Notes under the pieces: model-generated
What the model was told of the DNA's origin: nothing
Database searches by the model: none
Seen by the model: only the letters and a program-made list of their open reading frames with translations
Made by a program: the position numbers and the translations under genes
In this document: positions 39,882 to 42,660 of the stretch, one piece after another
Numbering within the stretch: the first letter of the stretch is position 1
How the letters are laid out: every line of letters begins with the position of its first letter
Origin: Amycolatopsis lexingtonensis
Lineage (GTDB): Bacteria; Actinomycetota; Actinomycetes; Mycobacteriales; Pseudonocardiaceae
Reading direction: 5' to 3'
NCBI RefSeq assembly: GCF_014873755.1
Contig: NZ_JADBEG010000001.1
Coordinates: 5,439,501-5,503,500, forward strand
Length of the DNA: 64,000 nt

Positions 39882-40961
39882 GGGGTTGTTTCATCGTGAT
39901 TTGCGCTGGTCAGGATGGGCTGATCAGGTCTGGTAATGCTCAGGCTTCTGCTGTCCGGGCGGTGTCGCGGACGCTCTGCTCGTGCTGGGTGAGCACGAGC
40001 AGAGCGCGCAGCAGGGTGGTGGCGTGGCGGGTGTCGAGGCGGAGTTTGTCGAGGATGTGCCAGTGTTTGAGGGCGGCGAAGCCGCCTTCTACCGCACACC
40101 GCATCGCCGCGAACACCGCGTTGGCCTGCTTCTGCGTCTTGGTCAGCGGTCGGCGGGCTTCGGCTTTGTAGGGAGTGAGCACGATCTGCTCACACGGTCC
40201 CTCACAGTCTGGGCAGTCGCGGGTGGTGCGGACGTCTTTGTGCCAGCCGTGGAAGCCTTTGTCTCCGGCCGGGGTCAGGCCGTGGGCGTGCAGGTGCTGG
40301 CGGATGCGCAGCCGGCGGGCGGCGGTGATGTCGGCGGTCTTGCCCGGCAACGCTGCCGAGACCCACAGCAGCCGGCCGGTCTCGTCGGTCAGGGCGAGCA
40401 CGACCAGGCCGTGGTGTTTGTGCTTGCCGTTGTAGTGGGCCCGGTTGGCTTTGCCGGTGCGGCGGCGGGTCCGGATCAGGGTGCCGTCCACCAGCACCAC
40501 CGTCGCGGCCTGGGCGGCCTGGCGGCGCAGGACCCGGTTCAGGCGAGTGGCGCGGGCGGCGAGCAGGGTGATGACTTCCAGCACCCACCGCCGGACCGTG
40601 GCCGCGGAGACACCCATGCCGGCTCCGAGGTGGGCCAGACGCGGGTCGTCGCGCAGCACGGCGAGTACGACCAGAGCCTGGCCGGCGGGGCCGGCTTTGC
40701 GCCAGCGCGACCGCAACCGCCGTCGGTGGGCACAGATCAACCCCGCGACCAGTTGCAGGGTCTGCCGGGACAGCGGAAGGGCGACCTGGTAGGAAAGAGG
40801 ACCGAAGCCCTCGGCGGATGGTTGACTCACATCTCGATCCTGCCGAGGGCTTCACCCATCTCCAGGTTCGCCACGCTGGTCCCAGCACCACTTCCTGTCA
40901 CGACAGGAAACCACCACAAAACCGACACCCTGACCAGCCACAACCAGGATGAAACAACCCC
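39882..40961 (-). mobile_element. IS5-family-like insertion sequence
   Basis: The element is 1080 bp. Its ends carry a perfect 14-bp inverted repeat, GGGGTTGTTTCATC, with further matching bases (GCTGGTCAGG) inward. A 3-bp target duplication, ATT, flanks it (39879-39881 and 40962-40964), matching the ANT duplications of the ISL2 group of IS5. One intact transposase gene fills it. Confidence 0.9.
39940..40830 (-). CDS. IS5-family transposase
   Basis: The 296-residue protein has an N-terminal helix-turn-helix region (GMGVSAATVRRWVLEV) and a DDE nuclease core: VVLVDGTLIRT (first Asp), ALPGKTADITAA and PAGDKGFHGWHKD (second Asp), and CAVEGGFAALKHW with the glutamate. This is the DDE_Tnp_4 type of IS5/PIF elements. 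The frame is intact, so the element may be active. Confidence 0.92.
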   Translation of the reverse strand: MSQPSAEGFGPLSYQVALPLSRQTLQLVAGLICAHRRRLRSRWRKAGPAGQALVVLAVLRDDPRLAHLGAGMGVSAATVRRWVLEVITLLAARATRLNRVLRRQAAQAATVVLVDGTLIRTRRRTGKANRAHYNGKHKHHGLVVLALTDETGRLLWVSAALPGKTADITAARRLRIRQHLHAHGLTPAGDKGFHGWHKDVRTTRDCPDCEGPCEQIVLTPYKAEARRPLTKTQKQANAVFAAMRCAVEGGFAALKHWHILDKLRLDTRHATTLLRALLVLTQHEQSVRDTARTAEA

Positions 40962-40976: not shown

Positions 40977-41456
40977 TCAGTCCAGGACCGGGCCGCCCAG
41001 CGGGTCGAGGTGGTAGGAGCGCATCGCGCGGGCCGCGTCGCGGTAGACGTGGACCGACACCGCCGGGTCCGGGCCGTCGTTGCGCACCTCGTGGACGTAC
41101 CCCGGGCCGAACACCCGCGACTGCCCCGCCGCGAGGGCGTGCAGCTCGGTGACCGCGCGGCCGCCCGGGGCCCGGCGGGCCACCGCCTCCGTCAGGTGCC
41201 CGCTGACCACGGTGAACGCGCCGCTGGCGAACGCGTGGTCGTGCAGGTCGGTGCGCTGGCCGGGCAGCCAGCTCATCAGCCAGACCTCCTGCCGCTCGTC
41301 CTTCTCGACGAGCGCGGCGAAGCGCTCGTCGGGGTCGTAGCGCAGCAGGTGCTTCCAGCGGTCACGGTCGGCGGCGACCTCCAGCGCGACGCGCACCGGG
41401 TGGCGCAGCGCGGGGTTTTCGGGACGCAGCAGGGTGTTGTCCGGAACGGCGAACAT
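40977..41456 (-). CDS. Cysteine dioxygenase
   Basis: The 159-residue cupin has the iron-binding HDH pair in DLHDHAFASGAFTVVSGHLTE and the third histidine in PGYVHEVRND, typical of cysteine dioxygenase type I. It oxidises cysteine to cysteine sulfinate. The start follows GAGGA. Its 5' region carries a cysteine-rich short reading frame (41507-41587), which suggests control by cysteine supply. Its 3' end lies 2 bp from the interrupted palindromic element. Confidence 0.93.
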   Translation of the reverse strand: MFAVPDNTLLRPENPALRHPVRVALEVAADRDRWKHLLRYDPDERFAALVEKDERQEVWLMSWLPGQRTDLHDHAFASGAFTVVSGHLTEAVARRAPGGRAVTELHALAAGQSRVFGPGYVHEVRNDGPDPAVSVHVYRDAARAMRSYHLDPLGGPVLD

Positions 41457-41506
41457 GGAGGGTCCTCACGGAAGAAAAGGGGTGTCGAGCTGGGCCGGGG
41501 CTGGGT

Positions 41507-41587
41507 TCACCGACAACAGCGACACGCGCACACGACGGCGCGGAAGCCCATGCGGCCCCGCGGCTCGGTCATTTCGTGCGCGAACAT
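41507..41587 (-). CDS. Leaderless short reading frame ending in a Cys cluster
   Basis: This 26-codon frame starts at ATG 41587 and ends VVCACRCCR, four cysteines in the last seven residues. On the same strand TTGACC (41622-41617), a 17-base spacer and GACTCT (41599-41594) place the predicted transcription start exactly on the A of the ATG, so it should be leaderless. Its stop lies 50 bases before the cysteine dioxygenase start. Polycysteine leaderless frames acting as cysteine-responsive attenuators are known in mycobacteria; the assignment here is by analogy. Confidence 0.7.
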   Translation of the reverse strand: MFAHEMTEPRGRMGFRAVVCACRCCR

Positions 41588-41593
41588 GCGACC

Positions 41594-41622
41594 AGAGTCG
41601 CAGCCGCTCCCCGCCCGGTCAA
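41594..41622 (-). promoter_or_regulatory. Promoter of the Cys-rich leader and cysteine dioxygenase
   Basis: TTGACC at -35 and GACTCT at -10, 17 bases apart, end 6 bases before the ATG of the short frame. No ribosome-binding site precedes that ATG. Confidence 0.55.
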
Positions 41623-41643
41623 GAGCTCCCACCTGCCGGGAGA

Positions 41644-42660
41644 TCAGGACCACTCGTGCTTTTGCGACCGCCCCAGCAGCTCGGCGCCCGCCCGCCGCGG
41701 GTCAACGCCCTCGTGGCAGACGCGGTGCATCGCGTCGGTGATCGGCATGTCGACACCCAGGCTCCGCGCGAGCGCCCGGATCGACGAGCAGGACATGACA
41801 CCCTCGGCGACCTGCCCGCCGGCCGCCGCCTGCGCCTGTTCGAGCGTCTCACCGCGGCCGAGGCGCTCGCCGAACGTCCGGTTGCGCGAAAGCGGCGACG
41901 AGCAGGTCGCGACCAGGTCGCCGACGCCGGCGAGCCCGGCGAACGTCAGCGGGTCCGCGCCCAGCTTCGCCCCGAGCCGGGCCATCTCGGCGAGGCCGCG
42001 CGTGATGAGCGTCGCCATCGTGTTGGTGCCCAGGCCCAGCCCGGCGGCCATGCCGGTGCTGAGCGCGATCACGTTCTTGCAGGCGCCGCCGAGCTCGCAG
42101 CCGACGACGTCGGTGTTGGTGTAGGGCCGGAAGTAGGAGTTGGCGCAGGCGCGCTGGATCGCGACGGCGCGCTCGTGGTCGGCGCAGGCCAGCACGGACG
42201 CGGACGGCTGCCCGGCGGCGATCTCCTTGGCCAGGTTCGGCCCGGTCACGACGACGACCTCGTTCGGATTCATCCCGACGATCTCGCCGATGACCTCGCT
42301 CATCCGCTTGAGCGTGCCGAGTTCGACGCCCTTCGCGAGGCTGACGAGGATCGCGTCCGGCGGCAGCAGATCGCGCCACGACGTCAGGTTGGCGCGCAAG
42401 CTCTGGCTGGGCACGGCGAGCACGACGGCTTCGGCGCCTTCGAGCGCCTTCGCCGGGTCGCTGGTGGCGGTGATGTTCTCCGGCAGCTCGACGCCGGGCA
42501 GGTACGCGCTGTTGGCGTGCCGCTCGCGGATGTCCTCGGCGACCTCTTCGCGGCGCGCCCACATCGTGACGTCGCGACCGGCGTCCCCGAGGACCTTCGC
42601 GAAGGCGGTGCCCCACGACCCGGCCCCGAGCACGGTGACCCGCTGCACGTCGGCGCGCAT
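41644..42660 (-). CDS. gpsA: NAD(P)H-dependent glycerol-3-phosphate dehydrogenase
   Basis: The 338-residue protein begins with a Rossmann signature, [20 protein letters not shown], and has [20 protein letters not shown], with the catalytic lysine, and [18 protein letters not shown]. It makes sn-glycerol-3-phosphate for phospholipids. Its start overlaps the plsC stop by one base (TGATG), so the acylation enzyme and the dehydrogenase are coupled in one lipid operon. It marks the right edge of the accessory block. Confidence 0.97.

Follow-up and report, generated by a model that had tools for sequence, protein, structure and literature searches.

A leaderless-type leader-peptide frame before cysteine dioxygenase in Amycolatopsis is a likely cis-acting cysteine attenuator

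In the passages cited below, the known cysteine attenuators serve genes of cysteine supply, whereas cysteine dioxygenase (CDO) is an enzyme that destroys cysteine. This raises the question of what a short reading frame ending in a cluster of cysteine codons does directly before a CDO gene. The frame lies in a 64,000-nucleotide stretch of Amycolatopsis lexingtonensis DNA (the window) from a genome of 10.7 Mb in a single contig. A first-pass annotation had described 26 codons ending in VVCACRCCR, 50 nt before CDO, without naming a strand, and we confirmed this frame on the minus strand (Table 1).

The minus-strand gene order runs from an acyltransferase through gpsA, the short frame and CDO to an IS5-like transposase; 56 nt separate the end of gpsA from the start of the leader frame, and the 50 nt spacer ends at the CDO ATG (41456). 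The transposase gene (window 39940-40830, minus strand) lies directly 3' of CDO and matches Pfam DDE_Tnp_4 above the cut-off and NCBIfam IS5 below it. CDO itself looks like the target of the leader because no close same-strand gene follows 3' of it, as judged by eye at 13 named loci. The CDO protein scores 55.4 bits against PF05995 (cut-off 23), and the solved sequences closest to it carry the name cysteine dioxygenase. Residues H72, H74, H122, H136 and Y138 are invariant in an alignment of 23 CDO sequences (locus L078 was omitted), and we take them to be the three iron-binding histidines and the His-x-Tyr pair. Use of L-cysteine or of another thiol substrate is set by an Arg- or Gln-type residue; R45-F46 is invariant in the 23 sequences, and the alignments leave the residue at the key substrate position unfixed. 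By their CDO, the named relatives are chiefly Amycolatopsis.

Table 1. Features of the CDO leader region, in window coordinates.
Feature	Position	Strand	Remarks
-35 element TTGACC	41617..41622	-	In 86 of 93 regions, TTG[AC]C at 35-37 nt upstream of the leader start
Putative -10 element GACTCT	41594..41599	-	6 nt before ATG; weak consensus match
Leader frame	41507..41587	-	26 codons plus TGA; encodes MFAHEMTEPRGRMGFRAVVCACRCCR followed by stop; C-terminus VVCACRCCR
Cys run TGC GCG TGT CGC TGT TGT (leader codons 20-25)	41513..41530	-	
Predicted spacer hairpin	41482..41525	-	Cys codons (5' arm) with spacer CAG..CGACAC, then pyrimidine-rich tract; MFE and consensus folds
CDO Shine-Dalgarno sequence GAGGA	41463..41467	-	SD-like site at 93 of 93 CDO starts
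Cysteine dioxygenase (PF05995, CDO_I), presumed target	40977..41456	-	Pfam match and nearest solved sequences

A frame was counted as short when its start lay no more than 45 codons from the stop. Short frames with four or more Cys in their last eight codons occur at a single one of the 1395 stop codons on both strands of the window, and that one is the leader. A chance test for such Cys tails at 79 named loci (854,694 strand-bases) yielded three others outside the 20-120 nt zone ahead of CDO, and the observation is thus confirmed as real and beyond chance. The leaders also have a codon preference: TGT makes up 282 of their 323 Cys codons versus 14 of 147 in the gpsA frames of the named loci, and this rare codon would be decoded slowly in the Cys tract. 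The tract pattern alone is uninformative, since a search of the same genome for C-x-C-C-x-stop-like tracts returned 74 matches versus 107 for the reversed pattern. A stop codon closes 31 of the 74, the CDO leader among them; of the other 30, we checked 21 for a short frame and left nine, and the checked set contained a noteworthy tract at moeZ and two loci (L232 and L247) with short GTG frames.

The first-pass annotation had proposed comparing the frame and its spacing among relatives, and both are kept. A CDO-family match was present in 80 of 80 genomes in the genus search, the best 30 of which became loci (one genome, G074, had a weaker paralogue match alone), and a scan of named genomes confirmed 111 places, 80 of which were kept. 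After we dropped a paralogue (L002) and a locus with no upstream DNA (L077), 109 loci collapsed to 94 distinct upstream regions by identity of the last 200 nt. In each region, we took as leader, among the frames that end 25-110 nt before CDO, the one with the most Cys, and at least one, in its last 10 codons. In 93 of the 94 regions there is such a Cys-containing short frame, and its end lies 41-76 nt from CDO. With starts as selected, the 93 frames span 8 to 32 codons, and within their last 12 codons 91 hold at least two Cys and 79 at least three. The A. sacchari leader, for example, reads MFALCPCR and that of Lentzea MSFNACCCCTWR. The sole region without a leader (L009) retains only ~25 nt directly ahead of CDO. 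The inverted repeat GGGCACGTCGTT..AACGACGTGCCC nearby suggests an insertion element, and the leader was probably lost by insertion. Thirty-one leaders are 26-codon versions with the CRCCR ending. Codons 21-26 and the stop, GCG TGT CGC TGT TGT CGG TGA, are identical in 30 of them and one base off in the other, and codon 20 is Cys in 14 and Arg in 17. A codon-position test for peptide selection on these 31 versions found third positions no freer than the others; part of the constraint on the leader therefore acts on nucleotides.

The same regions bear on how the frame would be expressed. The TTGACC-N17-GACTCT promoter of the first-pass annotation was said to place the transcription start on the leader ATG. 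Its layout holds exactly, as the two elements plus 6 nt end at the ATG, and the regions share its placement: of the 93, the window's own included, 86 have TTG[AC]C at 35-37 nt upstream of the leader start, versus 10 of 2120 control windows. The -10 element, however, is a weak one, and a sigma-70 scan of 41300-41800 found no promoter. The base before the leader start is C in 98% of the tabulated regions. An SD-like site occurs at one of the 93 leader starts versus all 93 CDO starts, where the test also accepted AAGG. From the conserved spacing and the absence of an SD-like site in 92 of 93 regions, we infer a fit with initiation at a 5'-terminal start codon. An in-frame GTG upstream would give a 48-codon version of the frame; we favour the 26-codon ATG start because the promoter position is conserved. 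The comparison of relatives thus supports a Cys-rich leader of leaderless type that goes with CDO. At many Lentzea loci (L082-L108), the -35 element and the leader start flank a palindrome, GAGGGTCCCGG..CCGGGACCCTC, that resembles a repressor operator. Another side observation concerns the first codons: the leader (41587-41579, minus strand) and CDO (41456-41448, minus strand) both open with ATG TTC GC(G/C), which encodes MFA. In the passages of the S. lividans study cited here (PMC8079986), leaderless leaders are common, trpL1 begins with MFAH and metL (MSTTSDRTPATEATTTPGARCMCRRMCAF) has three Cys; an MFA opening is possibly a favoured leaderless start context.

Across actinomycete families, the leader trait is broad but patchy. 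A Cys-rich short frame precedes CDO at 19 of 21 loci of f33 and 6 of 6 of f8, which by inference are Streptomyces and Mycobacteriaceae, and at 3 of 4 loci of f34, where two leaders read MRCCC followed by a stop. A 40-locus set that includes five f8 and four f34 loci has a leader in 14, among them two of eight in f41, one of ten in f31, one of three in f32 and the single loci of f54 and f56, and in none of the two loci each of f23, f27, f28 and f43. Four further loci of f23, f32 and f43 had no leader, and an order-wide family search gave a clear leader at only 2 of 30 loci. Two NCBIfam models cover leaders of this kind: NF042936 (Ms4527A family Cys-rich leader peptide) and NF042934 (cis_reg_atten, putative leader peptide). 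Of ten CDO leaders tested from other families, four match at least one of the two models and one scores above a cut-off, whereas the window's leader, scanned as its 48-codon extension, matched neither and hit no family at E up to 10. Pfam matched none of ten leader peptides, the window's included, and Rfam at gathering thresholds matched nothing in the whole window.

The host genome carries further leaders of this type before genes whose names (sirA, DUF4395, cysA2, MoeZ, rhodanese) we assigned by reading the proteins. Its sirA is preceded by the leader VTHAGVFLVARRHVDLVRVASALCAPVR, and an NF042934 leader precedes a DUF4395-like gene and cysA2; these two places gave the two NF042934 matches above the cut-off. 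Elsewhere in the genome (L259, C1:6236426-6238426, minus strand), MGEGLFACACCA followed by a stop lies 37 nt before a MoeZ-like gene (ThiF plus rhodanese) and may be another Cys attenuator. At L002 (C1:5649610-5652942), a second member of the CDO family stands ahead of a rhodanese-like gene and has a one-Cys leader, MSADAPATPVTRGSFWRRRTIDLLLVASAGCTRARLR, of the form RxxIDLxLVASAGC.

We modelled how much energy it takes to open the ribosome-binding site of the downstream gene, once with the leader free and once with a ribosome footprint covering the Cys codons, and compared the results with dinucleotide shuffles. Groups were thinned for the 10-sequence sirA model, the parameter-setting test and the CDO tree. 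For the sirA leader, the change caused by the footprint is -4.4 kcal/mol in 10 sequences (shuffles -0.3; group means from -3.2 to +1.4), and -2.9 over 29 sequences with the footprint at the first Cys. The cysA2 and moeZ leaders of the same genome gave about 0 and at most -1, which marks a limit of the model. At CDO, outside the lineage to which the window belongs, the change is -3.8 kcal/mol for A. sacchari-type leaders (15 sequences), -2.6 for Lentzea (18), -4.5 for Prauserella, Saccharomonospora, Haloechinothrix and Actinophytocola (8), -6.4 for Umezawaea and Saccharothrix (5), -5.4 for f33 (18 of its 21 loci), -1.6 for f8 (5) and -6.0 for f34 (3). It is not above zero in 69 of the 72 sequences of these seven groups, with shuffle means of -0.5 to +0.3. 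Several of these leaders have Cys codons directly complementary to the CDO SD, such as TGTGTCCTT with AAGGACACA, and a Cys tract-SD duplex test was above shuffles on average in the three groups that it covered outside the window's lineage, with only 22-50% of sequences reaching p 0.05. Since the footprint eases access to the CDO site and, in several leaders, the Cys codons complement the SD, pausing is predicted to switch CDO on, as for supply genes. Outside the window's lineage, the modelled geometry thus predicts the ordinary sign, the same as for the biosynthetic sirA leader, which is puzzling if the enzyme breaks cysteine down. The first-pass annotation had expected inverted logic, with CDO favoured when cysteine is high; as a general rule, this finds no support in the model, where those 69 sequences have the ordinary sign of sirA.

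Within the window's lineage, to which A. rifamycinica and A. eburnea also belong, the model behaves differently. The footprint changes the opening energy by +1.5 (27 sequences), +1.0 (10) and +1.5 (10) kcal/mol in the three subgroups, against shuffles of -0.3 to 0.0, and the change is above zero in 40 of 47 sequences. The free CDO site opens more easily than in shuffles, and Cys tract-SD complementarity falls below shuffles in the duplex test. In the CDO tree, the three subgroups share a fork (support 83/79) with one row that keeps Cys-Pro-Cys, and therefore the 47 sequences represent one or two changes, not 47. Across eight parameter settings, the sign contrast between lineages mostly holds; with the narrowest definition of the binding site, the effect shrinks to -0.3 in Lentzea, -0.6 in f33 and about 0 in the A. 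orientalis subgroup. The modelled sign in the window's lineage is compatible with inversion, and weakly so.

Taken together, we consider it likely that the leader acts in cis as a cysteine attenuator, its frame being leaderless and encoding the leader peptide of cysteine dioxygenase. On comparative grounds, the frame is very likely translated, cysteine-sensing and in the service of CDO, and ribosomes pausing for want of cysteine probably tune the amount of CDO. Several results weigh against this reading: the weak -10 element and the negative sigma-70 scan, the patchy occurrence among families, third codon positions that are no freer than the rest, the small model values for cysA2 and moeZ, the similar effect of a ribosome at the stop, the smaller changes under the narrowest binding-site definition and, in the window's lineage, a Cys tract that pairs with neither the SD nor the spacer beyond shuffles. 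The transcript would start at the leader ATG, as the conserved spacing implies, and the leader would be translated without an SD. When charged tRNA-Cys is scarce, the ribosome would slow at the rare TGT run before the stop. Its position would then select among leader and spacer hairpins and, in the folding model, set the accessibility of the CDO ribosome-binding site. In most sequences outside the window's lineage, pausing would turn CDO on, and in several the Cys codons may pair with the CDO SD themselves. In the window's lineage, pausing would act more weakly because the site, free of this pairing, is open from the outset; the effect may be a mild closing, or may occur at the level of transcription through the spacer hairpin.

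This last variant, an ordinary-sign transcription attenuation in the window's lineage, is possible, though we would not bet on it. The spacer hairpin and the pyrimidine tract would terminate transcription once the ribosome leaves, and a paused ribosome would cover the 5' arm and permit readthrough. The hairpin does appear in the lineage folds with the nucleotide-conserved Cys codons as its 5' arm, and the tract before the SD has a pyrimidine fraction of 0.80-0.82 and a T fraction of 0.32-0.42. However, there is no uninterrupted U-run, a terminator scan of 41300-41800 found none, and the hairpin z-scores are mild (-1.2 to -1.7). In no group does the median pairing of the Cys tract with the spacer exceed shuffles (median p 0.92 for the window's lineage).

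An inverted attenuator in the window's lineage is rather unlikely. According to this reading, local hairpins leave the CDO site open when cysteine is plentiful; when it is scarce, the paused ribosome breaks them, upstream RNA pairs with the SD flank and CDO falls. The raised opening energy in 40 of 47 sequences fits this, as does a free site that is easier to open than shuffles, and the part of the first-pass claim that concerns this lineage is thus compatible with the opposite sign found there; the effect is small, however, and inversion is not established. Leader codons 2-3 and the SD flank could also form a long-range helix, which fits as well: 92.6% of cells are paired, and one pair covaries. 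The probability of the helix is low, about 0.16 free and 0.20 with the ribosome, and its covariation may be, and probably is, one inherited change; we therefore rejected it as a candidate. The A. orientalis subgroup drops to about 0 under one parameter setting, and the 47 sequences again count as one or two changes. Inversion would follow a reversal of sign within one genus: an ancestral leader would have turned CDO on when the ribosome paused, and after the SD-pairing Cys-Pro-Cys codons became Cys-Arg-Cys, uncoupling the Cys codons from the SD, pausing would now lower CDO and plentiful cysteine would favour it. We regard such a history as doubtful.

Still less probable is that the leader is only a translated or structured 5' region, acting by translational coupling without cysteine sensing. 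In the model, a ribosome placed at the stop codon has much the same effect as one on the Cys codons and opens the CDO site about equally in the other groups, as coupling alone would predict. Against this, Cys codons occur in all 93 frames, with TGT preferred, despite lengths of 8 to 32 codons and changes at most other codons. Finally, short frames are common in GC-rich DNA here, but a chance frame without function is already contradicted by the conservation in 93 of 94 regions, the conserved promoter placement and the uniqueness of the frame in the window, and is extremely improbable.

We therefore retain the cysteine attenuator as the preferred reading. A conserved attenuator before CDO would mean either that one sensor is wired to opposite needs, or that the actinomycete "cysteine dioxygenase" has another purpose, for example sulphur salvage from another thiol. 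The relatives form a natural series, from 8 to 32 codons and with or without Cys-SD pairing, for how leader peptides change their output.

In the published model of polycysteine attenuators, the leader RNA reportedly hides the ribosome-binding site of the next gene, and a ribosome paused at the Cys codons frees it. Modelling finds such sequestration in 69 of the 72 sequences outside the window's lineage, but not within it. Because of this, we say that the window's leader works like the polycysteine attenuators and do not file it as a member. Mycobacterial polycysteine leaderless short-ORF attenuators are described by Shell et al. 2015 (PMC4633059), and the attenuator work of Canestrari et al. 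2020 is cited in PMC9094748, PMC9031893 and PMC13236596; the targets named in the cited passages of these four sources are cysA2, nirA, Rv0485 and "cysteine biosynthetic genes". A literature search, with most subscription journals outside its reach, gave no published Cys leader before cysteine dioxygenase among the matches listed, by title. The cited passages of the S. lividans study (PMC8079986) cover eight leaders, none cysteine-dependent, and leave the dioxygenase unmentioned, whereas the leader in the window is Cys-rich and precedes CDO. Like the mycobacterial attenuators of those passages, it has a terminal Cys-codon cluster in a short frame and a putative leaderless-type start, and lies directly before a cysteine-metabolism gene. 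Unlike them, its presumed target is a cysteine-degrading enzyme, and Cys tract-SD pairing in its lineage is not above shuffles. Cys-rich leaderless attenuators are already known from mycobacteria; what appears new here is a probable leader of this kind before a degradative enzyme.
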